Source: a virus. Taken from it: a stretch of 37,632 nt of DNA. The stretch spans positions 1 to 37,632 of IMG/VR virus record IMGVR_UViG_3300034082_004705; one strand, 5' to 3'. Shown here one piece after another: positions 1,535-32,675 of this stretch. The position numbers were made by a program, and so were the translations under genes. A model generated the notes under the pieces. It saw only the letters and a list, made by a program, of their open reading frames with translations, did not search any database and had not been told where the DNA came from. Every line of letters begins with the position of its first letter. The stretch's first letter is position 1.

Positions 1535-1834
1535 ATGACCGACAAAGAAATCAGACAGGAATTTACTCGTGTATCACCGGATGGCAAAACCGTGCAGGTG
1601 ATGAAAATTTCTTGGAAGGGCTCACACACACCCATCAGCAAATGGGTGGATTTTGGGCCGATTCTTAAAAGTGCAGATGCTCTGGAGATCAATGCAATCA
1701 TAGAACAAGCCATGAGCTGCGAGAAGTTTTTCAGACGTTGCGAAAAATGCCGTGAGCTCAACCCGATTGGTTGGATGCATGATAAAGAAATTTGCCAGAG
1801 CTGCGCCGAAAGATATCGGGGCGTTGTGTATTGA
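1535..1834 (+). CDS. small zinc-ribbon-like protein, unknown function
   Basis: 99 residues, family not recognised. The C-terminal third has a paired CxxC...CxxC arrangement (Cys69, Cys72, Cys87, Cys90) typical of a treble-clef or zinc-ribbon metal site. The N-terminal part looks like a small beta-rich fold (VQVMKISWKG). It is the first plus-strand gene after the divergent ParB-like gene and lies 30 bases before the terminase small subunit, so it probably belongs to the packaging operon. A DNA-binding or regulatory role next to the terminase would be reasonable, but the sequence does not show it. The start is the ATG at 1535; the only weak upstream purine stretch is AGGATGAAG, a little far away. 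Confidence 0.6.
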   Translation: MTDKEIRQEFTRVSPDGKTVQVMKISWKGSHTPISKWVDFGPILKSADALEINAIIEQAMSCEKFFRRCEKCRELNPIGWMHDKEICQSCAERYRGVVY

Positions 1835-1864
1835 TTTCTCAGTTGACGCATCCTCCCTCTGCGG

Positions 1865-2464
1865 ATGGAAGCAGTATCACCAGACATCGCCAAAAAACTG
1901 CTCTCGCGTGACTTCGCCAATCTGGTCGGTCGCGTGCAGAAGGGCGGCAAGTTGACTCGTGCTGAACGCGCCATGCTTCAAACATTGGCGACTGGAAGTG
2001 GAGCCGCTCCCGCAACGGCAGCATCCTACGTCGAGCTCGCAGCGATCCTAGGAGTCACACGTCAGTCGATCAACAATTGGAAGAAACGAAAAGACGCGCC
2101 CAAGCCCGCTGCGAATGGATTGCACGATGTGGCGGAATGGCGGGAGTTCATGCGACGTCATGATTTGAAAGGAAGTGAAACCACCGAACCGGGTGACATC
2201 GAATCATCACTCAAGGCGCGCAAACTTCTCGCGGAAGTAGAAGAGCGGGAGCTTCGACTCGGCATCAAACGCGGTGACTTCGTGGCAGTGGAAGAAGTGC
2301 GACAGGCATGGACCGAGCTCGTGGCGCAGGCAACCTCGATGCTACGCAAGAAGTTTGAACAGGAACTCCCTCCGATTCTTTCCGGTCTCGATGCCACAGG
2401 AATTCAGGAAGAAGCCCGCCGCGCCATCGACGAGGTGTTGACGATTCTCCATCAGGGCGAATGA
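1865..2464 (+). CDS. terminase small subunit-like protein
   Basis: 199 residues. Around residues 54-82 is a clear helix-turn-helix (YVELAAILGVTRQSINNWKK), the DNA-binding head expected of Nu1-type small terminases, which recognise the phage DNA packaging site. A charged helical region follows (LKARKLLAEVEERELRLGIK), then a segment resembling the C-terminal portion of Nu1-like proteins (RGDFVAVEEVRQAW). The stop codon overlaps the start of the large terminase gene (ATGA at 2461-2464), so the two are translationally coupled, as in lambda-like packaging modules. The order small subunit, large subunit, connector, portal, protease and capsid strongly supports the call. The exact family was not verified. 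Confidence 0.82.
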   Translation: MEAVSPDIAKKLLSRDFANLVGRVQKGGKLTRAERAMLQTLATGSGAAPATAASYVELAAILGVTRQSINNWKKRKDAPKPAANGLHDVAEWREFMRRHDLKGSETTEPGDIESSLKARKLLAEVEERELRLGIKRGDFVAVEEVRQAWTELVAQATSMLRKKFEQELPPILSGLDATGIQEEARRAIDEVLTILHQGE

Positions 2465-4278
2465 ACAAGATCGAACCCTCACGTAAAAGATTAGAGCGCA
2501 TCTGGTGTGAAGCATGGCGTCCTCCTGATCGCCGGCCACCGTGGGCATGGTGCGAGGAACATATCACCTCGATCCCCTACTCTCCCATCCCCGGGCGATA
2601 TCGTTCTGCCAACTCGCCATGGATGCGTGAGCCGATGGAGGCGCTGATGGACACTAAAATCCGTATCGTAAGCATCATTGCGTCGATTCAGAGCGGTAAA
2701 ACCTCTGTCGGTGAGTTCGGTCTCTGCCACATCATCGCCAATAACCCAGGTCCCACGCTATGGCTTGATCAGACCGACGATGACGCGAAGGACCAGAGCG
2801 AAAGCAGGCTACAGAAACTCTTCGACGAGTGCGAACCGGTGAAGGCGCTCTACCCTGCGAACCGGCATAAAAAACGCAACAATACCATCCACTTTGCCAA
2901 CGGCATGACGCTATGGGTGCTGGGTGCCAACAATAAAACCAACCTTCAGCGCCGTTCCATCCGTTGGTTGGTCTGTGATGAGACATGGAGATACAAAAGC
3001 GGTCACATGGCGGAAGCAGAGGCTCGTGTCACCGCATTCGGCTGGCTGGGCAAGTGCCTGTTCATGTCGCAGGGTGGTGAGGAAGACGACGACACTCATC
3101 GCAAGCATGAAACCACCGACATGCGAGTATGGACCTTTGCATGTCCTCACTGCCACCAACGCCAGCCGTTCAAGTGGGAGCAGGTCGAGTGGAGCAAAGA
3201 CGCCCGCGATGAATCAGGCGAGTGGGATTTCCAGAAGGTGCGCGACACCACCTCCATGCGTTGTGCCTCATGCAATCATTACTTCGATGACAGCGACCGC
3301 ACCCGCCGCGAATTGAACTTGTCTGGTCGCTATCTCGTAACGAATCCAAACGCCCCGAAAGAAAACGCCGGATTTCACTGGAATGCCCTGTGCGCTATGA
3401 GTTGGGGGCGACTGGCTGAACTTTACCTCCGAGCCAAAGCCGCAGCTCGTAAAGGCGACGTAAGTCTCATTCAACAGTTCTACCAAAAACGTCTGGCTCT
3501 GGCGTGGCGCGAGTATCTTGAGGACTACAAACTCGACATCGTCCCAGGCGGTTATCTCAAAGGCGAAACGTGGGACGGCGAGGCAGGAGTTGATGCGCAA
3601 GGACGATTGGTTCCAGCCGGTGAGCCATGCGCATGTCCACTTCGCATTCTCACGGTCGATTGCCAGATGGATCACTTGTTTCTTGTCGTTCGCGCATGGG
3701 CCGAGGATGGATCCAGCCGCCTGATGTGGAATGAGCGTGTGCTGACGTTCACCGATGTGCAAACCGTGCAGGAACGATTCGGCATCCACCCGAACTTAGT
3801 TTTTATCGATGCGGGCTACGCCACCTATGACGTCTATCGCGAATGCGCAGCGCACGGATGGACCGCCCTCATGGGCGACAAGCGAGCGACATTCACCCAC
3901 AAGGTCAAGGGTCGCAAATCAATCGAGAGGTTCTATTCCCCTCGTCGCAAAGTTGTCTTAGGTCGCGGGCAAACATGTTCGGTGTTCTATTGGTCGAACC
4001 TCAACATCAAGGACACTCTCGCGCGCCTTCGTCGAAATCAAAACCCTGATGACGGACCAGTCTGGGAAGTTCCTGATGACATCGATGAGGACTATCTCGC
4101 GCAGATGGAAAGCGAGCACCGTATCAAGAAGAACGGCAAGTGGATGTGGGAACGAATCGGAAGCCGCGGCAATCATTATTGGGACGCGGAAAACATGCAG
4201 GTCACCGCAGCAACCATGCTCAAGATCGTAGGACGAGAAGCCTCAACAACAGTTGACACTCCCAATGAAGAATCATGA
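2461..4278 (+). CDS. phage terminase large subunit, GpA family
   Basis: 605 residues, a usual length for lambda gpA-type terminases, which translocate and cut concatemeric phage DNA. The ATPase half shows a Walker A-like IQSGKTS (Lys80) and a Walker B-like WLVCDETW (Asp173, Glu174). A zinc-knuckle insertion follows, with FACPHC and MRCASC (Cys228, Cys231, Cys268, Cys271), common in this family. The C-terminal RNase H-fold nuclease half carries acidic residues at Asp400 (LTVDCQMD) and Asp450 (VFIDAGY), and a late HYWDAEN motif that could supply a third metal ligand. The gene is intact, overlaps the small subunit by ATGA and overlaps the following M15 peptidase gene in the same way. Confidence 0.93.
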   Translation: MNKIEPSRKRLERIWCEAWRPPDRRPPWAWCEEHITSIPYSPIPGRYRSANSPWMREPMEALMDTKIRIVSIIASIQSGKTSVGEFGLCHIIANNPGPTLWLDQTDDDAKDQSESRLQKLFDECEPVKALYPANRHKKRNNTIHFANGMTLWVLGANNKTNLQRRSIRWLVCDETWRYKSGHMAEAEARVTAFGWLGKCLFMSQGGEEDDDTHRKHETTDMRVWTFACPHCHQRQPFKWEQVEWSKDARDESGEWDFQKVRDTTSMRCASCNHYFDDSDRTRRELNLSGRYLVTNPNAPKENAGFHWNALCAMSWGRLAELYLRAKAAARKGDVSLIQQFYQKRLALAWREYLEDYKLDIVPGGYLKGETWDGEAGVDAQGRLVPAGEPCACPLRILTVDCQMDHLFLVVRAWAEDGSSRLMWNERVLTFTDVQTVQERFGIHPNLVFIDAGYATYDVYRECAAHGWTALMGDKRATFTHKVKGRKSIERFYSPRRKVVLGRGQTCSVFYWSNLNIKDTLARLRRNQNPDDGPVWEVPDDIDEDYLAQMESEHRIKKNGKWMWERIGSRGNHYWDAENMQVTAATMLKIVGREASTTVDTPNEES

Positions 4279-4709
4279 GTAAATTCAGCGACTGGTTTGA
4301 TTCCCAGAAATTTCAGCACTTCAGCGCGAGTGAGTTCGAATCGTATTTCGCGGCGCAGCGAAAGGGAGTGAAGAACAGCACACCTCCTCAACCACTCTGG
4401 AAAAACATCGTGCCGACGTTGCGCGTTGTTGATGAACTGCGCGAGTCTTACGGAAGACCATGCCGCATCCTCAGCTCCTATCGCTCACCGGCCTACAACA
4501 AGGCTGTCGGTGGAGCACAATTCAGTCAGCACAAAGAATTTAGCGCAATCGACATCACCTTCGATGACTTGAGCACTCAACGCGTGTATGAGCGACTCAT
4601 CGCATGGCGCAAGGCTGGCAAGTTCGTGGGTGGTCTCGGTTTGTATCCGACCTCGGGCTTCATTCACATCGATACACGCGGTCGCAACTCCACTTGGAAA
4701 GGAAAATGA
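4275..4709 (+). CDS. peptidase M15-like D-Ala-D-Ala carboxypeptidase / endolysin-type protein
   Basis: 144 residues. Peptidase M15 landmarks appear in order: SSYRSPAYN (Arg70), a SxHxxxxAxD-type metal site SQHKEFSAID (His86, Asp93), and GFIHIDTRG (His131). Such enzymes cut peptidoglycan cross-links and in phages act as endolysins or entry enzymes. The usual Gly of SxHxxGxAxD is Phe here, so activity is not guaranteed although all three zinc ligands are present. There is no signal peptide. The gene is wedged between terminase and the connector/portal genes with ATGA overlaps on both sides; lysis genes usually sit elsewhere, so a virion-associated or maturation role is possible. Confidence 0.8.
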   Translation: MSKFSDWFDSQKFQHFSASEFESYFAAQRKGVKNSTPPQPLWKNIVPTLRVVDELRESYGRPCRILSSYRSPAYNKAVGGAQFSQHKEFSAIDITFDDLSTQRVYERLIAWRKAGKFVGGLGLYPTSGFIHIDTRGRNSTWKGK

Positions 4710-4972
4710 CCATGGCTCGCGGACTCTTCATCACCGGTTTTACAGTTGCCGAAGTTCTCGCCATCCAGCAGAAAGCGAAGTCGCTGCTCATGGAAGGCAA
4801 GACCATCATGAACTGGAACGACGCAGAGACTTCGGTCTCGAAGCAATTCACCATGCCAGTCGATCAGGTGCTAGAGGAATGTGGCTACGCACTCAAGGTG
4901 CTCGATCCGCAAACTTACGGCAGACCACGAACGGTATCGGCTTCTTTCATTCACGGACACCTTGCGAAATGA
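4706..4972 (+). CDS. small head-completion/connector-position protein
   Basis: 88 residues. The ATG at 4706 overlaps the previous stop (ATGA). The ATG at 4712 (MARGLFITG) lies at better spacing from the GGAAAGG purine stretch at 4696-4702 and may be the true start. No family recognised with certainty. The sequence looks alpha-helical (FTVAEVLAIQQKAKSLLMEG) and ends with a segment about DPQTYGRP. Its place between terminase and portal is where lambda-like phages encode gpW, the small head-to-tail joining protein; this assignment rests on position only. It overlaps the portal gene by ATGA at 4969-4972. Confidence 0.7.
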   Translation: MTMARGLFITGFTVAEVLAIQQKAKSLLMEGKTIMNWNDAETSVSKQFTMPVDQVLEECGYALKVLDPQTYGRPRTVSASFIHGHLAK

Positions 4973-6381
4973 ATCGCTTCCAATCCATCGCCCGACTCTT
5001 GCTCCCACCCGTGCTTTTACCCAAAGCATGGGGATCGTCGTTTGAGTCTGCGAACTGGTCGCCACGTCGTGGTGCGGTGCCAGGAGCTTCGCCATCAGAT
5101 GCACGCAAAGAACTCACGCCAGGCATCCGCACGGAACTTGTGCGCAAGTCGCGCTACCTTCACAAGAATTCTGGCTTCGTGCGCGAACTTGTGGCCAACA
5201 TGGCCATCTACTCGACTGGTGACGGCATCCGTGTTCAGGCCCAATCTTCCGACGCATCTTGGAATCGGAGCGCCGAAGAATACTTTTCCTATTGGTCCGC
5301 GCGCTGTGACATCACGCAGCGGTTTTCCTTTGAAGAATGCCAAGCGCTCGTTTGTCGGGGCATGGACATCGATGGCGAATACTTCGTCCACAAAACCCGC
5401 GACCTCGATGGCGAACCACGCATTCAGTTGATCGAGAGCCACCGCATTGGTGATGACTGGGGATCGAAGGAAACTGTCGATGGCGTCGGCCTCGATGCCT
5501 ATGGTGCGCCCGTGTTCTACCGCGTTCTGCAAGATGACAACACCGCTTACGATCTCCCTGCTTCTGCCATCCTGCACGTCCACGAACCTGAGTGGGCCGG
5601 TGGTGTGCGCAATCACCCAACGATCCAGCACTCGATCAATCATCTGCTCGATGAGATGGAGCTCCTTGCGTTAGAAAAGCATGCGGTCAAAGACAACGCC
5701 GATGTGTCCCGCATCCTCAAAACAGCACGAGGTGAGATCGACGACAATGGCGACTTCGTGGTGGGTAGTGCGCACACTGCGAATGACTCTAGCGACCCGG
5801 TCAGCTTACAACGCATCGTGGGAGGAAAGCTCGTGGCGCTCAAGCCTGACGAATCACTCGATAGCTTCCAGTCGAACCGACCCAGTCCGACCTTCACCGG
5901 ATTCCTCGAACACCTGCGTCGTGATTCAGCACTTGGCATGATCCCGTTCGAGTTCGCAGCGGATTCCAGCAAGGTTGGTGGTGCGGGAGTGCGTCTCATC
6001 GTCGCCAAGGCTGACCGTCGATTTTCCTTCCGCCAGATGATTCTCGAAAGGCGTCTCATTCGTCCGATCTGGGCTTATGTGATAGGTGACGCCATTGCCC
6101 GAGGACTGCTACCTCCCGTGCCGAGCTGGTGGAAAATGGCGATTGTAGGACCGAAGCGGGTCACCGTTGATGCTGGTCGCGAAGCACAGCAAAACCGCGC
6201 CGATGTGGAGGCGGGACTCAAGACCATCACCGATCACTACGCCGAACTCGGCGCTGACTTCCGCGAAGAAATCGAACGACGTGGCGCGGATGCCAAACTC
6301 ATCCTGGAAACTGCTGCCAAGTATGGCGTGCCTCCTGAGATGCTGTGGAAGGCAGCTGCGGGATTCATGCAAGCAAGGTAA
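4969..6381 (+). CDS. phage portal protein, lambda gpB family
   Basis: 470 residues from the ATG at 4969, which overlaps the previous stop; the frame is open further upstream but those codons belong to the preceding genes. Portal proteins form the dodecameric ring at one capsid vertex through which DNA enters and leaves. Recognisable features are an N-terminal ARKELTPGIRTELVRKSRYL segment, repeated aromatic/charged stretches (WNRSAEEYFSYWSARCD), the DIDGEYFVHK and RIQLIESHRIGD strands, a HVHEPEWAGGVRNHP segment, and a long C-terminal helix region (IRPIWAYVIGDAIARG). Length and neighbours fit PF05136-type portals. It is followed after 35 bases by the head protease gene. Confidence 0.9.
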   Translation: MNRFQSIARLLLPPVLLPKAWGSSFESANWSPRRGAVPGASPSDARKELTPGIRTELVRKSRYLHKNSGFVRELVANMAIYSTGDGIRVQAQSSDASWNRSAEEYFSYWSARCDITQRFSFEECQALVCRGMDIDGEYFVHKTRDLDGEPRIQLIESHRIGDDWGSKETVDGVGLDAYGAPVFYRVLQDDNTAYDLPASAILHVHEPEWAGGVRNHPTIQHSINHLLDEMELLALEKHAVKDNADVSRILKTARGEIDDNGDFVVGSAHTANDSSDPVSLQRIVGGKLVALKPDESLDSFQSNRPSPTFTGFLEHLRRDSALGMIPFEFAADSSKVGGAGVRLIVAKADRRFSFRQMILERRLIRPIWAYVIGDAIARGLLPPVPSWWKMAIVGPKRVTVDAGREAQQNRADVEAGLKTITDHYAELGADFREEIERRGADAKLILETAAKYGVPPEMLWKAAAGFMQAR

Positions 6382-6416
6382 TCGTTATCCCTCTGCGTTG
6401 ACACCACCGCACGGGC

Positions 6417-7688
6417 GTGAACCCGGTAATCCAACATCGCGAATGGCTGATTCAACCTGATGCCCTGCACGCCATCTCTGCCTCGTATCAAGCGCAGGCA
6501 GAACGTGCAGGAATTTTCTCCCATCAAAGCCAACAAAATTCACTCCTATCGGTGGAGGATGGAATTGGAGTCGTTGCCATCGAAGGCCCGATCCTTCGCA
6601 AAGCTGATCTCTTCGCGAAGATGTTTTATGGAGCAACCAGCTCCGAGGAAATCTCCGATGCTCTTCAAGAAATCTCTGGGCGCGATGACATCAAAGCCGT
6701 GCTCCTCAACATCGACTCTCCCGGTGGCACGGTAGCCGGAACACCAGAGCTCGCAAATGCCGTTGCAGCACTCGACAAAAAGAAACCGGTCTATGCGTTT
6801 TCCTCGGGGCTCATGTGCTCGGCCGCCTACTGGGTTGCCAGCCAAGCACGCGCCATCTATGCCACACCATCCGCTCAGGTTGGATCCATCGGCGTGGTGC
6901 AAGCCGTCGTCGATAACAGCGCCGCACTCGATCGCGCAGGCATCAAGGTGGAAGTTTTTTCCGTCGGCAAATACAAGGCGATGGGCGCACCGGGAACACC
7001 ACTGACGGATGACCAACGAGAACTCATTTCTTCCAACCTCGCCGAGATCGCCGAGGAATTTTATAGCGCCGTTCTCGCTCGTGGTCGCGCCATCCCTGCG
7101 GAAGCCATGGAAGGACAGACGTTTAGCGGTCGCCAAGCGCAGCGTCACAACCTTGCGGGTATGGTGCCAGATCGCAACGAGGCCATGCGGAGGCTTCGCG
7201 TCTATCACGCAGCGGTTGACACGAGTTCCCGTGCGATGACTGACACACTCGAAGACCAACTCGCCCAAGCCCGCATCCAAGTGGAAACCATCCAGCGGGA
7301 TCACCAAGCTCAAACCGAACTTCTCACCGAAGCATCAGCGCATGCCGAACGCCTAACGGGCGAAGTGGAATTGCTGACTGCCGAAATCGATACCCTCAAG
7401 GCCGAGCGCGATACCGCCAGTGCCGAGGTCACCACGCTGCGTAAGCAAGTGACTGACCTTCAGGCATCCAAGACTGACTTCGACAAGCGTTTGCAAATCG
7501 AGGTGGCACGAGTGGTCGCTTCCACGGGCACACCGAAACCAGCGCAAGTGACTCCCGCCGGAGAATCCACCCAATCCGCCGATCTTCACGCTCAATTCAC
7601 CGCCATCAAGGACCCTGCGGAACAAACCGCGTTCTGGCGCGGCCTCACTCCTCAGCAACAAGCCCTCATCCTCAAACACCAAGCCTAA
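6417..7688 (+). CDS. S49-family head maturation protease with C-terminal scaffold-like region
   Basis: 423 residues from a GTG at 6417. Residues about 45-265 form an SppA/S49 serine protease domain: NIDSPGG, the nucleophile segment GLMCSAAYWVAS (Ser135), and VGKYKAMG, whose Lys187 lies 52 residues later, the spacing expected for the Ser/Lys dyad. Residues about 275-360 are a strong heptad-like coiled coil (ELLTAEIDTLKAERDTASAE), followed by a Pro-rich linker and a short helix ending in KHQA. This is the lambda gpC/Nu3-like plan, in which the protease carries the internal scaffold in the same chain and both guide and clear capsid assembly. It sits between portal and capsid genes, ending 9 bases before the capsid start. 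Confidence 0.9.
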   Translation: MNPVIQHREWLIQPDALHAISASYQAQAERAGIFSHQSQQNSLLSVEDGIGVVAIEGPILRKADLFAKMFYGATSSEEISDALQEISGRDDIKAVLLNIDSPGGTVAGTPELANAVAALDKKKPVYAFSSGLMCSAAYWVASQARAIYATPSAQVGSIGVVQAVVDNSAALDRAGIKVEVFSVGKYKAMGAPGTPLTDDQRELISSNLAEIAEEFYSAVLARGRAIPAEAMEGQTFSGRQAQRHNLAGMVPDRNEAMRRLRVYHAAVDTSSRAMTDTLEDQLAQARIQVETIQRDHQAQTELLTEASAHAERLTGEVELLTAEIDTLKAERDTASAEVTTLRKQVTDLQASKTDFDKRLQIEVARVVASTGTPKPAQVTPAGESTQSADLHAQFTAIKDPAEQTAFWRGLTPQQQALILKHQA

Positions 7689-7697
7689 TCGCACGTC

Positions 7698-8594
7698 ATG
7701 CCCAATACCCTTACCAACGTCAAAGACATCAAGGTCGCCCAGCGGGCACTTATGCCGTTCACTGCCAACCTCCTACCGGTGACCGCATTTTCCACCGACT
7801 TCAGTCCCCTACCAGCGGACAAGCTCGATACCGTGCGCGTGCCACTCGTCGGTGCGCCATCGACATCAAGTGACTTCGCCGGTGATTACTCCGCCAATGC
7901 CGATTCGACTGTCACCGTCGTGCCTGTGACCTTGAACCGTCACAAATATAAAACGGTGCACGTAACAGCAAAAGAATCTGCCGAGACCGCGATGACCGTG
8001 CTCGAAACTCTGGTGGAGGCAGCCGCCCAGCAACTGGCCCAAGATGTGCTCTTGGACATTTTCAGCTGCATCACCACGGCCAACTTCGGAGCGCCAGGAA
8101 TCACGGCACTCGCCGCCACGGCATTCGACTACAAGAAGGTGCTCAGTCTGCGCGAGGCCTGTGGCAATGCCAAGATGCCGCCAAACCCACGTTCGCTGGT
8201 GCTTGATTCTGGTTACTACACCAGTATGCTAGCGGATGATATCGTGGCGAAAAGCTTCAACCTCAACCTGAATGCCCCCGCCGTTACGGAAGGCATGGTC
8301 AAACGCATCGCTGGATTCAACCTCCACGAGACAACTCTGATTCCCTCGGATCATGCGGAAAAGCTCGTCGGCTTCGCAGCCCATTCCAGCGCCGTTGCCG
8401 TGGCCATGCGCTACCTGCAACCCGTGGCCGACTACCAAGAGTCCGGTGCCGTCACCGATCCAGCCACCGGCATGACCTTCGGCTACCTGCGCTTCACCGA
8501 CACCCGCGCGAACAAGATCTTCGTCACGTTGGAGTGTCTCTACGGATTCGCCCCAGCCAAGACCGATGCCCTCAAGCGTATCGTCAAACCGTAA
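7698..8594 (+). CDS. major capsid protein, HK97-fold type
   Basis: 298 residues. It has a short N-terminal arm (LTNVKDIKVAQRALMPFTAN), a beta-rich section (DKLDTVRVPLVG, TVTVVPVTLNRHKYKTVHVT), a spine-helix-like stretch (MTVLETLVEAAAQQLAQDV), and later segments with LVLDSGYYTSML and SSAVAVAMRYLQP, which resemble the A-domain core of HK97-type capsid proteins. Its position immediately after the protease/scaffold gene supports the call more than any single motif. There is no long N-terminal delta domain, which agrees with a separate scaffold being supplied by the upstream protease. It is the last recognisable virion gene; nothing resembling tail completion or tail tube genes follows. Confidence 0.85.
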   Translation: MPNTLTNVKDIKVAQRALMPFTANLLPVTAFSTDFSPLPADKLDTVRVPLVGAPSTSSDFAGDYSANADSTVTVVPVTLNRHKYKTVHVTAKESAETAMTVLETLVEAAAQQLAQDVLLDIFSCITTANFGAPGITALAATAFDYKKVLSLREACGNAKMPPNPRSLVLDSGYYTSMLADDIVAKSFNLNLNAPAVTEGMVKRIAGFNLHETTLIPSDHAEKLVGFAAHSSAVAVAMRYLQPVADYQESGAVTDPATGMTFGYLRFTDTRANKIFVTLECLYGFAPAKTDALKRIVKP

Positions 8595-8623: not shown

Positions 8624-8660
8624 CACCCTCTCTCGGGAAACTGGGAGGGGGTGATTTGTT
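8624..8660. repeat. 37-bp direct repeat, copy 1 (hairpin-forming)
   Basis: This 37-base segment is found without mismatch at 11797-11833. Its ends CACCC and GGGTG pair, with further TCTC/GAGG pairing, around a GGGAAACTG loop, so a transcript would fold. It lies just after the capsid gene. With the second copy it brackets the kelch-lectin gene. It may be a terminator-like or boundary element; no T-run follows directly. Confidence 0.75.
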
Positions 8661-8881: not shown

Positions 8882-11764
8882 ATGACTGTCCTCGATAAGT
8901 ATCTCAATGCTTTCCGCACCTTGCCTGTCTGTGCCATATTGGGCTTTATGACCATTTCCATCTTGGCGGCAGAGACGTGGTCTGTAACTGAGTCAATGAA
9001 CAATTCTCGCTATGGGCACACAGCAACTTTGTTGGCAAATGGCAAAGTTCTCATTGCAGGTGGGGAATCAAGCAGCATCTTCTCCAGTTCCGCGTTATAC
9101 GATCCCTCATCAGGAACTTGGTCGAACACCGGATCAATGAGCAATTCACGCCTTAGCCATACGGCTACTTTATTACCAAATGGTAAAGTACTCGTTGCAG
9201 GAGGATACAACGGCAATATTCTATCAAGTGTCGAGATTTACGATCCGTCGACAGGTATATGGACTAGCACTGGCTCAATGAACAGCATGCGCACCGGTCA
9301 CACAGCTACTTTGCTAACTAATGGTAAGGTGCTAGTAGTGGGGGGCGAGGGAAATTTCACTAATATCCGCAATGATGCGGAGTTGTATGATCCGAATACT
9401 GGAGTTTGGACACAGACTGGATCAATGAACAATTCACGCTGGATACATAATGCGACTTTGCTAGCAAATGGAAAGGTGCTTGTTACAGGAGGGCGTCAAG
9501 CATACCAATCGGGCGATCTTTCAACGGCAACACTTTTCGACCCAATAACAGGAACATGGTCTAATGCTGGCTCAATGAGTAGCGCAAGAATAGGTCATTC
9601 GGCGACATTGCTAAAAGATGGCACAGTATTAGTTGCGGGTGGTTGGAACGGCATGTCCGCTGTTAGCACCGTAAATTTATACAATCCCCTAACAGGTAGT
9701 TGGTCAGATGCTTCTTCACTAAGTAATCCATGCGAGAACCATACTGCGACATTACTTACAGATGGCAGGCTGCTACTGGCAGGGGGAAAAAATGGAGATA
9801 CATATTTTTCTAGGACAGTCTTATATAACCAAGATACTAATACTTGGACAAACATCACCCCAATGAGTAATGCACGCTGCGTCCATTCATCAACAATGCT
9901 AGCAGATGGCAGAGTTCTCGTCGCGGGAGGCTCAAACGCAAGCGGGGCGATTTCTAGTGTAGAGATATTTAATCTACTGTCAAATTACACTGTAACTATC
10001 TCATTATCGTCAAAAGGCGTTGTAACAGGCAACTCAAGCCCGTATCTGGAGAATACTACCGCCACCCTCACCGCCACTCCCAACCCGGGATACCGTTTCA
10101 TCGGATGGACTGGTGACGCATCGGGAGTCACTAATCCACTTGCCATCACAATGGACGCCGACAAGACCGTGGGAGCCACCTTCGAGAAGGACCTATCCGA
10201 CAACGATAGCGACGGTCTCACCGCCTATGACGAGCTGTTGGCTTTCGGCTCCAATCCGGCATTGGCCGACACCGATGGCGACGGTTTAAACGACGGTTAC
10301 GAACTCGGCATAGGCCGTTTCTCGATCATCCCAGGTCCCTTCACCTGGCAGCAGGCGCGCAACGACGCCCGGAGCAAGGGCGGTGACCTCGCCAGCTTCC
10401 CAACCGAAGACCGCTGGAACCGCGCCTTGCAAGGCATGGGCACGAATCCCTTCGAGGACTTCACAGGCCTGTGGATCGGTGCTAGCGACGCCGCAGTGGA
10501 CGGCACCTGGACCTGGGTCAATGGCGAGTCGTTCAGCTTCGCCCCGTGGGGCACCGGTCGCCCGAGTTCGACAACCGGCAACACCCTCGACTTCGCTGAA
10601 GTCAGTGGGGGTGGAGGTGCAGACATCAGCAAGTGGTATGATCGAAGCTCCAACACAATTCGTGAAGGCTATTTACTGGAAATAGGCTACGCCACCAATC
10701 CCCTCGTAGCTGATGTTGATGCCGATGGCCTGAATGATGGACAGGAGCAGACCGCGGGCACAAATCCGAAGATTGCCGACACTGATTTAGATGGTTTGAG
10801 TGATGGACAAGAGGTGAACGGAACGAAGACTAATCCCAAACTGGCAGATAGTAATGGCGACGGCACCAACGATGCCAATTCCGATCAAGATGGCGATGGT
10901 CTAAGCAACCTTGTGGAAATCACCTCATATGGAACAGATCCTATTAAGGCTGATACCGATGGTGACGGGCTTCGTGATGACTTTGAAATCGGTTTGGGAC
11001 GGTTCGCTCTGATCAGCACGCGGCTCACTTGGAACCAAGCGAAGGCGGACGCTGCCACGAGAGGCGGGCACTTGGCGACTTTTACGAGTAGTTCTGAATA
11101 CGAGCTTATGCGAACCAACATAGGGATACCATCGCTAGATAGCATCGATGGTGCCTGGGTGGGAGCAACGGACGAAGCCGCCGATGGCACGTGGCAATGG
11201 GCGAATGGGGAGCAAAGCGGGAATTTCGTGATCCCATGGGGCACGGGACGTCCCAGTAATTTGAATGGAAACACATTGGACTACTCAGAAATTTCAGGAG
11301 GCGATGGGGCTGAAGTGTGGAAATGGTATGATCGATCAGCTAGCAGCACTCGAGCAGCCTACATTCTTGAGACCGGCTTTCCCACCGATCCATTGGTTGC
11401 CGACACTGACGGAGATGGAATTGCCGACGGTCTGGAGACAAGCAGCGGACTGATACCAACGATGGCGGATATGGACATTGACGGTTGGAATGATGGAGCC
11501 GAACTGGATTTTGGTGGCAACCCCAGATCAGCCAATGTTATGCCAAACTTTCAATGCAAGCTCAACAAGGCTTCTGCCGGCAATCAGTGGATTCTACGTT
11601 TTCCAGCGACACAGGGGCAAACCTATACTATCGAGGCGAGTGAGAACCTCAGTTCATGGGATAGTATAGAATCCAATATCACAGGTAATGGAAATATCGT
11701 GACGCGAGCTTATCCTGTTGCGCCAACACAGCCCAAACGCTACTTCCGAATAAAGCGGAATTGA
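8882..11764 (+). CDS. secreted kelch-propeller / C-type lectin-like protein
   Basis: 960 residues with a signal peptide (hydrophobic CAILGFMTISILAA). Domains in order: seven kelch-like blades at about 35-365, each with a pattern like HTATLLANGKVLVAGG, enough for one complete seven-bladed propeller; a bacterial beta-repeat at about 370-437 (YRFIGWTGDASGV, then DADKTVGATFEKD); calcium-binding thrombospondin type 3-like repeats (DTDGDGLNDGYE); a first C-type lectin-like domain at about 476-600 (WIGASDAAVDGTWTWVNGE); more type 3 repeats; a second lectin-like domain at about 704-830; and a C-terminal sandwich ending YFRIKRN, common in Verrucomicrobia secreted proteins. It probably binds glycans at or outside the cell surface. 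It follows the capsid gene but has no phage hallmark. No cell-wall anchor or PEP-CTERM is visible. Confidence 0.85.
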   Translation: MTVLDKYLNAFRTLPVCAILGFMTISILAAETWSVTESMNNSRYGHTATLLANGKVLIAGGESSSIFSSSALYDPSSGTWSNTGSMSNSRLSHTATLLPNGKVLVAGGYNGNILSSVEIYDPSTGIWTSTGSMNSMRTGHTATLLTNGKVLVVGGEGNFTNIRNDAELYDPNTGVWTQTGSMNNSRWIHNATLLANGKVLVTGGRQAYQSGDLSTATLFDPITGTWSNAGSMSSARIGHSATLLKDGTVLVAGGWNGMSAVSTVNLYNPLTGSWSDASSLSNPCENHTATLLTDGRLLLAGGKNGDTYFSRTVLYNQDTNTWTNITPMSNARCVHSSTMLADGRVLVAGGSNASGAISSVEIFNLLSNYTVTISLSSKGVVTGNSSPYLENTTATLTATPNPGYRFIGWTGDASGVTNPLAITMDADKTVGATFEKDLSDNDSDGLTAYDELLAFGSNPALADTDGDGLNDGYELGIGRFSIIPGPFTWQQARNDARSKGGDLASFPTEDRWNRALQGMGTNPFEDFTGLWIGASDAAVDGTWTWVNGESFSFAPWGTGRPSSTTGNTLDFAEVSGGGGADISKWYDRSSNTIREGYLLEIGYATNPLVADVDADGLNDGQEQTAGTNPKIADTDLDGLSDGQEVNGTKTNPKLADSNGDGTNDANSDQDGDGLSNLVEITSYGTDPIKADTDGDGLRDDFEIGLGRFALISTRLTWNQAKADAATRGGHLATFTSSSEYELMRTNIGIPSLDSIDGAWVGATDEAADGTWQWANGEQSGNFVIPWGTGRPSNLNGNTLDYSEISGGDGAEVWKWYDRSASSTRAAYILETGFPTDPLVADTDGDGIADGLETSSGLIPTMADMDIDGWNDGAELDFGGNPRSANVMPNFQCKLNKASAGNQWILRFPATQGQTYTIEASENLSSWDSIESNITGNGNIVTRAYPVAPTQPKRYFRIKRN

Positions 11765-11796: not shown

Positions 11797-11833
11797 CACC
11801 CTCTCTCGGGAAACTGGGAGGGGGTGATTTGTT
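11797..11833. repeat. 37-bp direct repeat, copy 2 (hairpin-forming)
   Basis: Exact copy of 8624-8660, located 33 bases after the stop of the kelch-lectin gene. The two copies place that gene in a 3.2-kb unit with identical ends, as expected if the gene arrived or duplicated through this repeat, or if the repeat is a common 3'-UTR hairpin that follows genes in this island. Confidence 0.75.
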
Positions 11834-12214: not shown

Positions 12215-13693
12215 ATGAAAATTCGAATTTTTCTAATCTTATCATTGATATTTGAAGCAACTGTTACTCTTGCACACGCGCAACTAAGAACTTTTACGAA
12301 TGCGGATGGTAGAGCTATTCAAGCGAAAATTATCAGTAAAAACGATACTCACGTTAAAATCGCCTTAGCGAATGGTAAGCAATTTAGCTTGGCGATCAAT
12401 AGTCTCTCTGAATCAGATCAGAAATACCTTAAGTCCATGGCTTCAGTAGATGAAGTAACGACATCATCTCAACGAAACTACAAACCATCACCTAATGACA
12501 AATTGGATCCTGAGACTCTCAACGATGCCGTAGGTCATAACCTATTCGCAGAGACGTCACTTTGGCTTAGTGCAGCAGAAAAAATAGCGCAAAAACTCGA
12601 TATTCCAATCGAATCGAAAACTAAAAATGCAAGTAGTTTTCGGTACTACACGCCGGAAAATTACAAAATGTTCGATGCTCATCCATATTCCGTTGCAATG
12701 TATGCGGAAAACGATCGTGTGACATCTTTTTCAATTGTTTTTGCCAATAAGGGTGATCTTTTCGGTTCCAAAGGAGGAGCGGAAGATCATTTTGATAAAG
12801 ATACACCGCCAGCACAAGCTGAAGAGATGGTCAAATCGGCTATGAAAAAAGATTATACTGCCATCACAAATGCGCTCAACAAAAAACTTGGTGAGCCTCT
12901 AAGAGATCGCATTGGAGACTCTCAATCTGTTCGCGAAAGTATGCTACGCTGGGACTGGCGAGGGCACAGTATTCTTCTTGCTAATGTAGAAGGTGCTTAC
13001 GTATCTCTGCAAATTGTACCCAGTTCTTTTGCTGACTCCGGCGGTAAGCTTTCGGCCACTCAAGATTCAGTAATGCGTTCCAGACTTCTAGCAAATCTAG
13101 AAAGTCGTGATAACGGTGATGTAGTAATCGGCGATATTCCAATGGTAGATCAAGGACCTAAGGGCTACTGCGCTCCCGCAACTACTGAGCGTGCTATGCG
13201 ATATCTAGGGATACCATCAGATATGTATATAATCGCCAATAAGGGAAATTCTGGCTACGGAGGAGGCACGAGTATGGAGTCCATATTTGAGGGCATGGCA
13301 AAACACATTAGGAGCAAGAGACGATCCGCTGATGTATGGGATGGAAAAATGCAGATTAAAGATTTAGCAAAGTATATTGATAAAGGTGTTCCGGTAATAT
13401 GGTCCCATCAAAGTACTGAAGTTTTTAATGATGTTGCGAATCAGCGAACAGCAGATCGCAAAAGTGTTACTAATTGGGAAGAATGGAAAACAAAGTTAAG
13501 CAACGAAAACGCCAAAAAAAAATTGAAACCCGATGATACAAAAAGTCATGTCGCGCTGATTATTGGATACAATAAAGAAACCAATGAAATAGCATTCAGT
13601 GATAGTTGGGGTGAACAATACAAAGAACGTTGGATTACTTTGGAGGAAGCAGAGGTAATATGTCAAGGTAGATTTTACGCCGTCAGTTTCTGA
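12215..13693 (+). CDS. secreted SHD1-domain protein with C39-like cysteine peptidase domain
   Basis: 492 residues. The signal peptide ends at about ATVTLAHA. Residues about 24-75 form an SHD1-type domain (RTFTNADGRAIQAKIISKND), frequent in Planctomycetes and Verrucomicrobia secreted proteins. The middle (90-300) is unrecognised. The C-terminal domain looks like a papain-like C39_2 peptidase: Cys319 in QGPKGYCAPATT, His445 in SHVALIIGYN and Asp463 in FSDSWG fit a Cys-His-Asp triad. It may cleave peptides outside the cell or in the periplasm; no substrate gene is apparent. The gene and its leader are visibly more AT-rich than all neighbours, with many ATA, AAA and TTT codons, indicating recent transfer. 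It occupies the place where a YQGRL-type partner would be expected. Confidence 0.78.
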   Translation: MKIRIFLILSLIFEATVTLAHAQLRTFTNADGRAIQAKIISKNDTHVKIALANGKQFSLAINSLSESDQKYLKSMASVDEVTTSSQRNYKPSPNDKLDPETLNDAVGHNLFAETSLWLSAAEKIAQKLDIPIESKTKNASSFRYYTPENYKMFDAHPYSVAMYAENDRVTSFSIVFANKGDLFGSKGGAEDHFDKDTPPAQAEEMVKSAMKKDYTAITNALNKKLGEPLRDRIGDSQSVRESMLRWDWRGHSILLANVEGAYVSLQIVPSSFADSGGKLSATQDSVMRSRLLANLESRDNGDVVIGDIPMVDQGPKGYCAPATTERAMRYLGIPSDMYIIANKGNSGYGGGTSMESIFEGMAKHIRSKRRSADVWDGKMQIKDLAKYIDKGVPVIWSHQSTEVFNDVANQRTADRKSVTNWEEWKTKLSNENAKKKLKPDDTKSHVALIIGYNKETNEIAFSDSWGEQYKERWITLEEAEVICQGRFYAVSF

Positions 13694-13702
13694 TCTGCAT
13701 GC

Positions 13703-13789
13703 ATGCTGCGTGTGGCATCCTTGATCGTCGGCCTCATGGTCGGAGCCATGTCCCTGATCGCCATGGTCAAGAAGATGCGGGGTAAGTGA
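13703..13789 (+). pseudogene. 3' remnant of the 74-aa holin-like gene
   Basis: 28 codons (MLRVASLIVGLMVGAMSLIA, then MVKKMRGK) match the last 27 codons of the 32414-32638 gene almost base for base, and homology continues about 45 bases past the stop (to about 13834). The 5' half is missing, replaced by the end of the AT-rich C39 gene. An ATG happens to be in frame, so a hydrophobic mini-protein could still be made. Confidence 0.7.
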
Positions 13790-13859: not shown

Positions 13860-14228
13860 TTAATCCGTCCCCGCGATATCCCTGTCTTCATCGAAAAATG
13901 TTCCTTCAGGTGTCAGAATGAATCCATCGCATGCCTTCGAAAAATATACGGGCAAGAAACCAAGTAACGGGCGCAGGGGCATCTCCACCACCGTTGCGTC
14001 AACCCTTATAGCCCCACCGAGCATGTCGTCATAGCAGCAATCAATCACAAGCTGATATTCTTGGCCCGTCTCGGATTCAAAATCCGTTAACTCAAGATGA
14101 TCACCGTCCTGCGACTTCATCTTATCGGCAAGCTGCTCGTAAGCCAGGCCACGGAAGTAAGAAATTCGCTCCTTGAGTGCGTTGCGAGCATCACTGGGAA
14201 TGTCCTTGGCCTTCTTCATTTCTTGCAT
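13860..14228 (-). CDS. gene-cassette protein, unknown function
   Basis: 122 residues, not recognised. There is no signal peptide. The N-terminus is basic and helical (KAKDIPSDARNALKERISYF), the middle is acidic (SQDGDHLELTDFESETGQEY), and a beta-rich tail ends FDEDRDIAGTD. The start at 14228 lies directly against an attC-like palindrome, as expected for the first gene base after a cassette junction; the ATG at 14219 is an alternative. No ribosome binding site or promoter is visible. It is the last gene of the small minus-strand cassette array, and its stop lies about 30 bases from the block conserved between 13.8 and 32.65 kb. Confidence 0.6.
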   Translation of the reverse strand: MQEMKKAKDIPSDARNALKERISYFRGLAYEQLADKMKSQDGDHLELTDFESETGQEYQLVIDCCYDDMLGGAIRVDATVVEMPLRPLLGFLPVYFSKACDGFILTPEGTFFDEDRDIAGTD

Positions 14229-14312
14229 ACATCTAGCTCATCCACGGCGAAATGGAAGCTCGAATTCAAACGGGAGCGTTTACCGCCGTTGGATGAACTG
14301 GCTTGTTTCAAC
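14229..14312 (-). other. attC-like site (degenerate)
   Basis: Arm TCATCCACGGCG (14238-14249) pairs with CGCCGTTGGATGA (14284-14296): twelve pairs with one extra base on one side, the extrahelical-base pattern of attC sites. On the minus strand it starts with GAAACAAGCC and ends with CTAGAT where GTTAGAT would be expected, so the right core looks mutated. It shares its outer end with the next site at 14302-14374. Confidence 0.45.
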
Positions 14313-14374
14313 TAAGGGCGCAATCGAATGGACTCGCTATCACTCACCCATTCGCAGCACCCTTTATTGTTCTC
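14302..14374 (-). other. attC-like site, GCGAATGGG family
   Basis: CGAATGG (14325-14331) pairs with CCATTCG (14348-14354) around a loop nearly identical to the sites at 32747-32816 and 36775-36844. On the minus strand it begins GAACAATAAAGGGTGC and ends in CCTTAGTTGAAAC. The upstream gene (endonuclease/phosphatase-like) has its stop codon inside it. Confidence 0.5.
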
Positions 14375-15058
14375 CTTCTTTGTTTCGATTGTTGCTGCCA
14401 CGCCTACATGATCTGAAAGCCTTGTTCCATCTGGCGCAAATCGATCTAATATATTGATGGCGGATACGATCAAATCATTCGAAACCGCGAAATGGTCGAT
14501 AAGCCCTCGTCCTTCTTGATCGATCATCCCTTCCGTGGGCACGGTAAAACCGCCAGTCAGTGCAGTTGTCAGAGCCTTAGCAACTCGATCCGGTTGGGTA
14601 AGTCGCGGGATTCTTTGATTGAAGTCTCCAAGGATGCAAATGGGTTCTGGTGCCTTGGAATATCGATCCAATATCCGCCCAAGGGCCTCGCAATACGAAA
14701 CATGATCTTCCCACGGAGCACGATCTCTTCGGCCGCTGCGGACATGTGCATCCTTCCACGGGATGCAAACGCCAACGAATCTTATCCCCCCAGCAACTCC
14801 GGAAATAAATCGTCCTGATGGCATCATAGGGTCACCTGACATATCAGGGTAAACCCAAGGTTCTTTGCTCCAAAGGACGGCCTTCCGCCTGTCACCAGTG
14901 TTCGCATATCCATAATCAGAACCAGCTTCGATGCTATGGCCACCATGCAGAACAGTGCGAATTATCTCGGTATAGCAAACCACATCTGGATCAACCTTGA
15001 GGATCTCTTCTTTTATGATCTTAAGTCGATCACTTGTAGGTGACGCCCACTCAAGGTT
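14312..15058 (-). pseudogene. endonuclease/exonuclease/phosphatase-family gene with broken start
   Basis: The intact frame codes from a GTG at 14983 for 223 residues: GDRRKAVLWS, CILGDFNQRIPR, LIDHFAVS and LSDHVGVAATI are the GDFN, DH and SDH motifs of the Mg-dependent EEP (DNase I-like) fold, and CYTEI carries the metal-binding Glu. Homology continues upstream of the GTG: the same frame reads NLEWASPTSDRLKIIKEEIL, the expected N-terminus, back to 15058, where it meets a TGA. The nearby ATG at 15062 is out of frame. The first strand, which normally supplies an Asn ligand, therefore cannot be translated from a proper start, and the gene is probably dead or N-truncated. At the 3' end the frame runs through an attC-like site, which supplies the last residues (CCEWVSDSESIRLRP). 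Confidence 0.65.
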
Positions 15059-15213: not shown

Positions 15214-15324
15214 TCATGCAGTTTTGGGCGGGTGCGTCAATCCATTCTTCGGATATTCTTCCACGATGCGTGCCATGGATAGACCCCATGTGAGCCATCG
15301 TTCACTGTAGCTTTTCTTTGTCAT
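15214..15324 (-). CDS. possible small protein or gene fragment
   Basis: A 36-codon ORF starting MTKKSYSERWLTWGLSMARI and ending THPPKTA. The composition (W, Y, charged residues) looks protein-like, but no family is recognised and no ribosome binding site is visible. It lies in the otherwise empty stretch 15063-15386 between the cassette array and the 63-aa membrane protein gene. It could be a cassette remnant. Apart from this ORF, nothing interpretable is seen in that stretch. Confidence 0.25.
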   Translation of the reverse strand: MTKKSYSERWLTWGLSMARIVEEYPKNGLTHPPKTA

Positions 15325-15386
15325 GGATAGTCTCCGATTCACAGCTAGATTTCCCCCTCCCCCACGTTGACAAATCCCCAGCTGTC

Positions 15387-15578
15387 ATGAAGTCACACAA
15401 ATATCTCAGCTATGTAGGGAAAATCGCCGGACTCGTATCCGCTCTCAACGTCATTCCCTTTGTCGATACATCCGTCGGTGTCATCGTCTTTGCCGCCGCT
15501 TCGATCCTCAAAGACTCGGTGAACCGCATCGGTGACCTACTCGACGACGGCAAGCCGAACAAGAGCTTCAAAAGCTGA
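15387..15578 (+). CDS. small holin-like membrane protein (63 aa)
   Basis: 63 residues from the ATG at 15387; the frame is open to 15318, but the shorter start follows TTGACA (15367-15372), which could be a -35 element. It has a short basic N-terminus (MKSHKYLSYVGKIAG), then a hydrophobic span through VIPFVDTSVGVIVFAAASIL, and a charged tail (NRIGDLLDDGKPNKSFKS). A truncated copy lies at 32176-32319, where it precedes the 74-aa membrane protein gene. A small membrane protein pair in a prophage suggests holin or lysis function; this is inference from size and context. The 74-aa partner is missing here; sequence after the downstream hairpin diverges. Confidence 0.6.
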   Translation: MKSHKYLSYVGKIAGLVSALNVIPFVDTSVGVIVFAAASILKDSVNRIGDLLDDGKPNKSFKS

Positions 15579-15602
15579 TCGGCACACCATTTTTCTCTCC
15601 CC

Positions 15603-15646
15603 GCAAATCCAAGGTTGAAGACTTCATGTTCAGCCTTGGATTTTGC
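15603..15646 (+). other. conserved RNA hairpin / terminator-like element, copy A
   Basis: GCAAATCCAAGG pairs with CCTTGGATTTTGC, twelve pairs with one bulged base, loop 19 bases, then GCGTTTGGTGCC. The copy at 32347-32384 has different stem bases with pairing retained (A-T to C-G and A-T to G-C), so the structure itself seems conserved. It lies 24 bases after the stop of the 63-aa gene and could be a terminator, an RNA processing site or a recombination site. Confidence 0.55.
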
Positions 15647-15786
15647 GTTTGGTGCCATTTTTCGGGGGCGTCGAGGGAACTGGTGGCAATTGTTTGGCTA
15701 CCAATTCTCCAAAGCGAGGCAGATAGGAGAGATTTGTGACAATCCTGCCAAAAAGTTGCGGCATCTGATTTTTTGCTTGCTTAGCT

Positions 15787-15798
15787 CGTTACTATTTT
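15787..15798 (+). promoter_or_regulatory. CGTTACT motif before the AQIDSGGG gene
   Basis: CGTTACTATTTT, preceded by TTTTTTGCTTGC, resembles the elements at 8855 (TTTTTTCTTG...CGTTACT) and 11949. It lies 53 bases before the preferred GTG start at 15840. A promoter or operator shared by three secreted-protein genes is the likely meaning. Confidence 0.4.
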
Positions 15799-15839
15799 GG
15801 TTAGAAGTTGGGTGACAAAACTTGTATACCACGACACCA

Positions 15840-16454
15840 GTGAAAACTTTATCATCCATTTTTCTCCTCATCGGCCTCATCGCCTTTCCCATGAGCGCTC
15901 AAATTGACTCAGGCGGTGGCAAAGCCCAAGTGGGTAACCTGACCAACCACGGCTCGCTGGGCGGCACTGTTGCCTCGGGCACTCTGCAGGCAGGAGCGGT
16001 GACCAATCACTCTGGCTTGATCGAGGTGCTCTACGCTGCGTCCTTCACAACGGAACCCGATGCGAACAGCAACGACATCCCCGATTCCTGGGAGCAGGAG
16101 CATTTTGCGGGGACAGGCTCATTTGATCCGAATGCGGATTCCGATGGCGATGGCACCAGCAACCGCATGGAATACATCGCTGGCACTTTGCCTACCAGCC
16201 GATCCTCAGTATTTCGTCCGTTGGGTTCGCACAATGGAACCGTGTTCACCATGCCGATGGCGACCGTGGCGGGCAGGACCTATAAGGTCTATGCGACCCG
16301 CAATCTTACGGATTGGCACTTGCAGCAGACCATCGTTGGCGATGGCACGACCAAGACCTTCAGCTTCGATGAAATGACCCTGACCAGCGGTCCTCTGCAT
16401 TCTCCCACCCATCCATCCTCCTACTTCTTCCGCGTCGAAATTTCCCTTCCTTAA
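15840..16454 (+). CDS. secreted AQIDSGGG-type protein with calcium-repeat and C-terminal sandwich
   Basis: 204 residues from a GTG at 15840 (a TTG at 15822 is also in frame). The GTG start gives an ideal signal peptide, MKTLSSIFLLIGLIAF then PMSA, with mature start QIDSGGGKAQVGNLTNHG. A repeat-like N-terminal part (NHGSLGG and NHSGLIEVLY) is followed by one thrombospondin type 3-like repeat (PNADSDGDGTSNRMEY) and a beta-sandwich (AGRTYKVYATRNLTDWHLQQ) that ends SYFFRVEISLP, the same C-terminal type as the kelch-lectin protein. It is 18 bases upstream of the YQGRL gene, so the pair is an operon. Function is unknown; such pairs recur in Verrucomicrobia and may form a surface or fibre structure. 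A stump of a paralogue lies at 11967. Confidence 0.75.
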   Translation: MKTLSSIFLLIGLIAFPMSAQIDSGGGKAQVGNLTNHGSLGGTVASGTLQAGAVTNHSGLIEVLYAASFTTEPDANSNDIPDSWEQEHFAGTGSFDPNADSDGDGTSNRMEYIAGTLPTSRSSVFRPLGSHNGTVFTMPMATVAGRTYKVYATRNLTDWHLQQTIVGDGTTKTFSFDEMTLTSGPLHSPTHPSSYFFRVEISLP

Positions 16455-16472
16455 CCATCAAAAAATCTGATC

Positions 16473-18053
16473 ATGAAACATCGTATCCTTGCCCTCGTTT
16501 GTAGCATCGCCGCCGCTTTCACGGCATCAGCACAGGTGCCCAGTCTCATCAACTACCAAGGCCGTCTCACGGATTCCAACGGCGCACCCGTCACAGGCAA
16601 CAAGAACTTCGCCATCAGCATTTATGATGCAGCTACGGGCGGGAATTTGCTCTATGAGGAAACCATCGGCGCAGTGACTCTTGACTCGAATGGAGTTTAT
16701 TCGTTCCAGTTCGGATCAGCAGGAAGCAGCACTTCGCAAGTGACAGAGACTATTGCTACGACAGACGATACAAACTTAACCTATAGCAAATCTTTATCGA
16801 ACGCACAGGTAGTGAATAATTCCATAACGGTGACAGATGGAACGAATTCCTGGAACCAGTCAGTTGGCAATCCCGGCGTGGGAGCCACGGCTACGGCTAA
16901 TACGATAGTAGGATTCGTTATTGGCGCCACTATCACAAATGGGGGTTCAGGATACACTACTGCGCCTGCTGTCACTATCACGGGAAATGGAACTGGAGCG
17001 GAGGCGACAGCAACGATCACAAACGGCGTAGTTACGGGAATCACAATTGTCAATGCGGGCAGCGGATACACCAGCGGAGCTACAATCACCATTGATGCTC
17101 CAGTCATTCCCTTCCGCGTCGATTACAGCGGAGGAATAATTTCCGCAACGTATTCATCGGTTCCAACCGCAGGACAAACGATCAGTGCTACGTATCGATA
17201 TAACACGAGCGGGATTACGGGTGCCTTAAATGCTGCGGCTGAGCAATGGATGTCTGTGAGTGTGAATGGGTTTATGCAATCTACTAGACAGAGAGTTCTT
17301 GCGGTTCCGTTTGCAGTTAACTCTGCAAAATCTCAGTGGTCGGCCTATGCAGCTGACGCTAAAGACAACAGCGCAAGAATGGCTGCATCTTCATCAAGCG
17401 AAGCGATAGCACGCTATTCAGGAGAAAACTACACTTCTATCGCAACCTCAAAAGCATCTACAGGTACAGCTTTTGGCGAGTTCTTTACAACAAGTTACGG
17501 GTATGGAGGCGGAGACTATGTTGCTCAATCACCTGTTTTAATATCATCTGCATTCGTCGGATACTCAGGGAATTACTTTTCCACATCTCTTTATGGAAGT
17601 ATTACTTTCTACTATGCGGACGGGACAAGCGCCACAGTATCATGGAGCGGTATGCTTCCAGATAATGCGCTAGACAGAACCAAAAAAAATCCATATCCAG
17701 AAAAGCTAGTTACAAGGGTATCAGGAAATCAGTATTACGAATATTGGTATGCAGGACCTCGCTCAGGAAATGCGATGGTATTGACACTTCAAACAGCAGA
17801 TACAGCTGCGATTCGATTTTCTGTGGGACGTACAGCGAAGACATATTTTGCTTGCCCCGTAGTTAATGACATACAAGCCATTAACGAAGCTGTTATTAAT
17901 GTATATTATTCTGATGGATCTTTAGAAAAAATCACTCCAAATACGTGGATTAATTTATCTCAGTCTAAAACTATTTCATTTCTAGAGCTCGAAGGGAAAC
18001 CTAAAGGAACTGGACGAATATCTCTTACTTCAATGAGGCTTTTGGGATGGTGA
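16473..18053 (+). CDS. secreted YQGRL-type repeat protein, possible fibre or surface adhesin
   Basis: 526 residues. The signal peptide ends at about FTASA. The mature start VPSLINYQGRLTDSNGAPVT, followed by FAISIYDAATGGNLLYEE, is a conserved opening seen in many Verrucomicrobia secreted proteins, rather like a small carboxypeptidase-regulatory-type sandwich. Residues about 145-205 contain glycine-rich beta repeats (TITNGGSGYTTAPAVTITG, then IVNAGSGYTSGATITI) found in tail fibre and adhesin shafts. A conserved RQRVLAVPFAVNSAKS segment at about 265 leads into a more AT-rich, unrecognised C-terminal domain of about 240 residues (FTTSYGYGGGDYVAQS), which may be the variable binding head. It probably works with the preceding AQIDSGGG protein. 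A true phage tail fibre would not need a signal peptide, so a surface role is more likely. Confidence 0.72.
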   Translation: MKHRILALVCSIAAAFTASAQVPSLINYQGRLTDSNGAPVTGNKNFAISIYDAATGGNLLYEETIGAVTLDSNGVYSFQFGSAGSSTSQVTETIATTDDTNLTYSKSLSNAQVVNNSITVTDGTNSWNQSVGNPGVGATATANTIVGFVIGATITNGGSGYTTAPAVTITGNGTGAEATATITNGVVTGITIVNAGSGYTSGATITIDAPVIPFRVDYSGGIISATYSSVPTAGQTISATYRYNTSGITGALNAAAEQWMSVSVNGFMQSTRQRVLAVPFAVNSAKSQWSAYAADAKDNSARMAASSSSEAIARYSGENYTSIATSKASTGTAFGEFFTTSYGYGGGDYVAQSPVLISSAFVGYSGNYFSTSLYGSITFYYADGTSATVSWSGMLPDNALDRTKKNPYPEKLVTRVSGNQYYEYWYAGPRSGNAMVLTLQTADTAAIRFSVGRTAKTYFACPVVNDIQAINEAVINVYYSDGSLEKITPNTWINLSQSKTISFLELEGKPKGTGRISLTSMRLLGW

Positions 18054-18612: not shown

Positions 18613-18633
18613 ATATTTAACAGCCACCCCCTT

Positions 18634-32319: not shown

Positions 32320-32346
32320 TGCCACACCATTTTTCCCACGATCCGC

Positions 32347-32384: not shown

Positions 32385-32413
32385 TTGCGTTTGGTGCCGC
32401 GTAGGAACACACG

Positions 32414-32638: not shown

Positions 32639-32675
32639 GTGAAAACATGCGGGTGGTGTTGGACTGGGAACTAAT

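Follow-up and report, generated by a model that had tools for sequence, protein, structure and literature searches.

Tail-less head-gene block of a Verrucomicrobia siphophage prophage, very probably the product of an internal deletion

Introduction

Does a block of packaging and head genes that ends at the coat gene belong to a satellite that takes its tails from a helper phage, or to a prophage that has lost its own? The question is raised by a linear IMG/VR fragment, a single metagenome contig of 37,632 bases (IMGVR_UViG_3300034082_004705), which was analyzed at its full length and is referred to here as the window. Capsid-forming PICIs (cf-PICIs; Alqurainy et al. 2023, as described in PMC10690885) resemble the window in encoding their own terminases, portal, protease, and coat and in having no tail genes; their gene set also includes head-tail connectors and an HNH endonuclease, and they need a helper only for tails (PMC10690885). 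Given that an intact tail-less head block resembles a capsid-forming satellite, placing such a block among its relatives guards against a wrong call. We conclude that the window very likely holds a temperate, lambda-like siphophage prophage of Verrucomicrobia that was inactivated by an internal deletion together with the loss of its right end.

Results and Discussion

An intact operon of packaging and head genes

The head and packaging operon occupies positions 1865-8594 on the plus strand, and every frame in it is open. It begins with an intact terminase small subunit (TerS, 1865-2464; phrog_57, 1.7e-12), which is followed by a GpA-type large subunit (TerL, 2461-4278; Pfam GpA_ATPase, 7.8e-41, and GpA_nuclease, 2.7e-21), an M15 peptidase endolysin (4275-4709; Pfam Peptidase_M15_3, 2.1e-19; phrog_894 endolysin, 2.1e-26), and, in the connector position, an 86-aa gene of cluster c15 (4712-4972; HMM 2.2e-48) with an open frame. 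A lambda-family portal comes next (4993-6381; Pfam Phage_portal_2, 2.7e-36); its open reading frame spans 4588-6381 while homology begins at ~4990, so its start is approximate. The operon closes with an S49/ClpP-type head maturation protease with a possible scaffold tail (6417-7688; Pfam Peptidase_S49, 3.7e-30; phrog_53, 1.2e-56) and a P22-coat-like major capsid (coat) protein (7698-8594; phrog_283, 5.3e-26; Pfam P22_CoatProtein, 6.1e-06). A lysis gene thus sits within the packaging module, where the M15 endolysin, accompanied in many relatives by c19, lies between TerL and the portal.

When compared with three close relatives (dS ~0.17-0.55), TerS, TerL, the portal, the S49 protease, and the coat gave omega values of ~0.01-0.09, with TerS at 0.01-0.02 against close relatives. 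By this measure, all five genes are under strong purifying selection. Profiles built from the tail-side clusters of relatives gave no hit in the window with E<=10, although all head clusters, c63, and c19 were found. Family searches, open frames, purifying selection, and the null result with the tail profiles thus bear out the original prediction of an intact packaging and capsid operon without tail genes. Its names for the terminases, portal, protease, and coat also stand; the exceptions are the 99-aa frame at 1535, which it had taken for the small terminase, and the M15 endolysin, which it had not named. That 99-aa frame (1535-1834, plus strand) has no family match and occurs in only some relatives, at 44-97% identity.

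Left of the terminase block, the minus strand encodes a TET-associated-type glycosyltransferase (GT, 29-1039; Pfam TAGT, 7.4e-07; phrog_842, 1.8e-10) and a ParB-like, methyltransferase-associated ParB protein (660-1451; phrog_498 and phrog_620; cluster c9). Both are conserved left neighbors of the block, and the GT is 85-98% identical in close relatives. The window begins at the GT gene, and the left end of the prophage is cut off. The retention of the GT and ParB-like genes (29-1451) beside the terminase hints at modified phage DNA.

Relatives of the head block carry tails

A coat protein search of viral contigs returned 158 matching stretches, from which 80 loci at 78-99% identity were kept. 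A TerL search of genome contigs added 33 loci, nearly all from Verrucomicrobiota, including Akkermansiaceae, Prosthecobacter, Akkermansia, and Chthoniobacter flavus. One 3.1-kb contig binned as Bacteroidales (L104) carries this TerL at 70%, probably through a binning error. Gene order in the relatives was read after clustering of the predicted proteins. Downstream of the coat gene, the relatives have a variable cargo slot and then the conserved clusters c4, c5 or c14, and c16 or c17, a set that continues through c10, c7, c8, the tape measure c11 (phrog_9959, 6.1e-74), c18, and further tail genes. Tail genes are present in 38 of the 38 loci whose sequence extends 6 kb or more past the coat gene on the right, and 28 of these 38 extend to the tape measure. 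The loci without tail genes have 5.9 kb or less on that side, where at least L002, L005, L008, and L043 hold large cargo. The tail set is also present in L006, L009, and L010, whose coat proteins are 98-99% identical to that of the window.

The same head block is therefore widespread in other contigs and genomes, with tails wherever enough right flank is available, and we found no tail-less lineage. This speaks against the capsid-forming satellite put forward in the original prediction, which had itself named tail genes in closely related loci as a refutation; stable taillessness across the lineage would be expected of a cf-PICI.

The gene order of the relatives also bears on the whereabouts of the missing genes. 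Both ends of the contig are open, and the window contains an IS91-like transposase and repeats, as might be expected if the tail module had moved and now sat beyond a contig end. In all relatives with enough sequence, however, the tail genes are found immediately past the coat slot on its right, and the left side, where the original prediction had allowed for tail genes, is occupied by early genes, which the closest relatives encode on the minus strand. We regard a relocated tail module as extremely unlikely.

The first conserved gene past the cargo slot, c4, resembles the lambda head-tail attachment family Phage_attach of Pfam, a weak match (1.6e-4) that falls below Pfam's cut-off. In the PDB, its AlphaFold model (pLDDT 81) matched the stopper-terminator complex of siphophage R4C (2.9e-4) and the neck of lambda (8.0e-4), and c4 is accordingly a predicted head stopper. 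The model of c10 (pLDDT 47) was set aside.

The closest full prophage lies on JAFLEH010000019.1 (MAG UWPOB_VERRUCO3, Verrucomicrobia; G024:C11, hereafter the C11 prophage). It agrees with the window in its GT (90% amino acid identity), ParB (86%), TerS (86%), and TerL (89%), in the order of M15, portal, S49, and coat, and in the presence of c63, c19 (84%), and the integrase (73%). Its genes run coat, c12, c4, and on through the tape measure to c81, c63, c19, and the integrase, which lies on the minus strand; one minus-strand cargo gene stands between c63 and c19. Unlike the window, the C11 prophage has the stopper, the tail module, and the tape measure between the coat slot and c63 (~11 kb from c4 to c63), and it retains a full-length integrase with a tRNA-Arg directly beside the integrase start. 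Verrucomicrobia phage P8625 (NC_029047.1), a cultured siphophage, shares with the window the order GpA terminase, portal, Clp protease, and P22-type coat, but it is lytic, and its coat and terminase are only ~25% identical to those of the window. After the coat, it carries homologues of c4 and c5, a tape measure, tail fibres, and a c63-like gene; its tail has been imaged by electron microscopy (PMC4642752).

The intact order is thus coat, cargo, stopper and tail (~11 kb), c63, c19, integrase, and tRNA. It is given here for a widespread but little-described Verrucomicrobia siphophage prophage family with variable cargo slots, and it helps to separate real satellites from remnants in the phylum.

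A probable scar marks the place of the missing module

Downstream of its coat gene, the window encodes secreted-looking proteins (a kelch protein and a C39-like protein), the holin-like c19, and an integrase, much as originally described, except that the integrase is truncated. The C39-like cargo gene (12215-13693, plus strand) has its stop codon at what we read as a deletion scar (13694-13705), where the window lacks the stopper, the tail module, and the 5' part of c63. The last 27 of the 62 codons of c63 follow at 13706-13786 on the plus strand (74% over 27 aa; HMM 6.6e-12). Given that the stopper c4 is among the absent genes, the gap has cost the element not only its tail but its head stopper too. 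From the C39 cargo onward, the order in the window is the 3' end of c63, c19, cargo, and integrase. Among virus contigs, the three whose integrases are nearest to that of the window read integrase, c19, c63, then the tail genes and the tape measure. The window therefore keeps the genes that flank the missing module, arranged as in its relatives, with c63 cut short at the scar.

The small holin-like gene c19 (15386-15583, plus strand; open reading frame 15318-15578), which adjoins the integrase in intact relatives, is 84% identical in amino acids and 79% in DNA to its counterpart in the C11 prophage. Two minus-strand genes, one of 122 aa and one Exo_endo_phos-like of 223 aa, lie between c63 and c19 (13860-14983), and this insertion contains an IS-end-like repeat at 14307-14388.

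The integrase and the right end are damaged

The prophage integrase (18765-19871, minus strand) is 5'-truncated. It is 73% identical to the C11 integrase over residues 40-362, its homology ends at ~19741, and the N-terminal region of the relatives' integrases (~130 residues) is absent from the window. At the DNA level, the terminator and integrase are 72% similar to those of the C11 prophage. In several relatives, the integrase frame appears, from translations, to read back into the 3' end of a tRNA gene, which fits tRNA integration in these relatives. An Rfam search gave no match. A tRNA search across the window found none, and the tRNA-Arg of the C11 prophage produced only chance-length matches, leaving no tRNA or attachment site after the integrase. 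The 5' truncation and the missing tRNA together argue that the right attachment site of this prophage has been lost. At the other end of the comparison, a search for attL of the C11 prophage gave no convincing direct repeat. Likewise, for the window neither an empty site nor a host flank could be recognized, which counts against a deletion.

Some 300 bases beyond the integrase ends the gene for a 3,913-aa protein (20159-31900) with DUF4347, many RCC1 repeats, MBG, and fn3, which may be a host gene or cargo. Next, at 32182-32636 on the plus strand, comes another scrap from the right end of a related prophage, in rearranged form, with a c19 fragment and then a full c63. This scrap repeats 13700-13789 and 15441-15569 at 93-95% DNA identity, and its c19/c63 order is reversed relative to intact prophages. 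Farther right, 34136-37632 holds the IS91-like transposase and a tyrosine recombinase. A 155-bp repeat occurs after the transposase (36689-36843) and elsewhere in the window (32661-32815), in addition to the further repeat at 14307-14388. We considered an integron attC for the 155-bp repeats and set it aside because the copy at 36689-36843 follows an IS91-like transposase; the nearby recombinase, judged by eye, is also unlike an integron integrase.

The contig ends on the right with an exact 127-bp copy of 34136-34262 and is an assembly break at a k=127 repeat. Such a break in a metagenome contig invites the suspicion that the scar is itself an assembly chimera, in which the ends of one or two family prophages were wrongly joined and the real prophage has a tail. 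Several related prophages can share one genome, and an exact search for the junction in other virus contigs did not find it, so that it is unique in the virus collection. On the other hand, there is no long exact repeat at 13694-13706 to explain a wrong join, and both the truncated integrase and the rearranged scrap at 32.2-32.6 kb suggest that the region has truly decayed. An assembly error is, in our estimate, quite unlikely.

Probably a defective prophage rather than a satellite

The window shows the traits of the Verrucomicrobia siphophage family: the head operon TerS, TerL, M15, c15, portal, S49, and coat, with GT and ParB genes to its left, and the right end of c63, c19, and a minus-strand integrase, of which c63 and the integrase are truncated. 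As in a defective prophage, the flanking genes stand in intact order and the genes at the breakpoints are truncated. The window is therefore filed as a defective, not a complete, member of this lambda-like siphophage prophage family. The original prediction had named loss of the tail genes as its alternative, and this is the part that the evidence favors: both flanks are kept in order, c63 is cut at the scar, and the integrase lacks its 5' part with no tRNA or attachment site beyond it.

We propose that a deletion of ~11 kb, a size taken from the closest full prophage, took out the stopper and tail, and that a second rearrangement would have removed the right attachment site. The resulting element would be unable to build infectious particles or to excise by itself, and on induction it might produce at most DNA-filled heads without stopper or tail. 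The lack of decay in the head genes makes it probable that the deletion is young compared with the divergence from relatives that have tails. Taken from sequence comparison, the undecayed head genes indicate either a recent deletion or heads that may still be of some use; the data fit both.

A cf-PICI-like satellite would build its own heads and take tails from a helper phage. The window has much in common with such an element, including its own TerS, TerL, portal, protease, and coat in an intact block under purifying selection, an integrase nearby, and no tail genes, and helpers may be at hand because related prophages can share one genome. It differs from the cf-PICIs at several points. It lacks the head stopper, which a cf-PICI would require as its head-tail connector (PMC10690885), and also the genes that follow c4; only c15 remains in connector position. 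The integrase is broken and its tRNA and attachment site are absent on the right, the left end lying outside the window; a truncated phage gene, c63, sits at the scar; and the relatives have tails. A capsid-forming satellite is thus very improbable. The head-block genes gave no match to an HNH endonuclease, though one may lie left of the GT gene, where the window starts.

One published proposal casts defective prophages as proto-satellites (PMC11389934). Here, an element that had lost its tail and stopper could still package its own DNA with its own heads and terminase, to be finished with the stoppers and tails of a sibling prophage. One genome, G024 (UWPOB_VERRUCO3), holds at least three prophages of the family, with L085, L093, and L098 noted alongside. 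Several genomes hold more than one, which makes trans-complementation conceivable; even so, we give a proto-satellite very little credence. The preferred reading remains a prophage inactivated by deletion.

Cargo is flanked by duplicated terminator-like hairpins

The post-capsid slot of the window is bracketed by two exact copies of a 37-bp hairpin on the plus strand. Copy 1 lies 3' of the capsid gene (8624-8660), and copy 2 (11797-11833) ends a cassette whose gene encodes, by Pfam, a kelch/C-type-lectin/TSP3-repeat protein (8882-11764, plus strand). Two hairpin copies likewise occur in the post-coat slot of L025, L028, and L051, and the slot is filled by other cargo in relatives. The C39-like cargo beyond copy 2 (Pfam PF13529, 3.6e-08) had no relatives in a search of viral contigs. 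A further cargo segment on the plus strand (15629-18661), comprising c35/c36 and a 106-aa frame, is enclosed by a pair of identical 28-bp segments of the c19 terminator (15629-15656 and 18634-18661), which places this cargo inside that terminator. The arrangement suggests that duplicated terminators serve as recombination sites through which cargo enters or leaves. Across the relatives (L002-L113), up to three cargo slots were seen: one separates portal from protease, one lies after the coat and ahead of c4, and one precedes the tape measure. Their contents are very different and include proteins of 1,185 to 2,086 aa.
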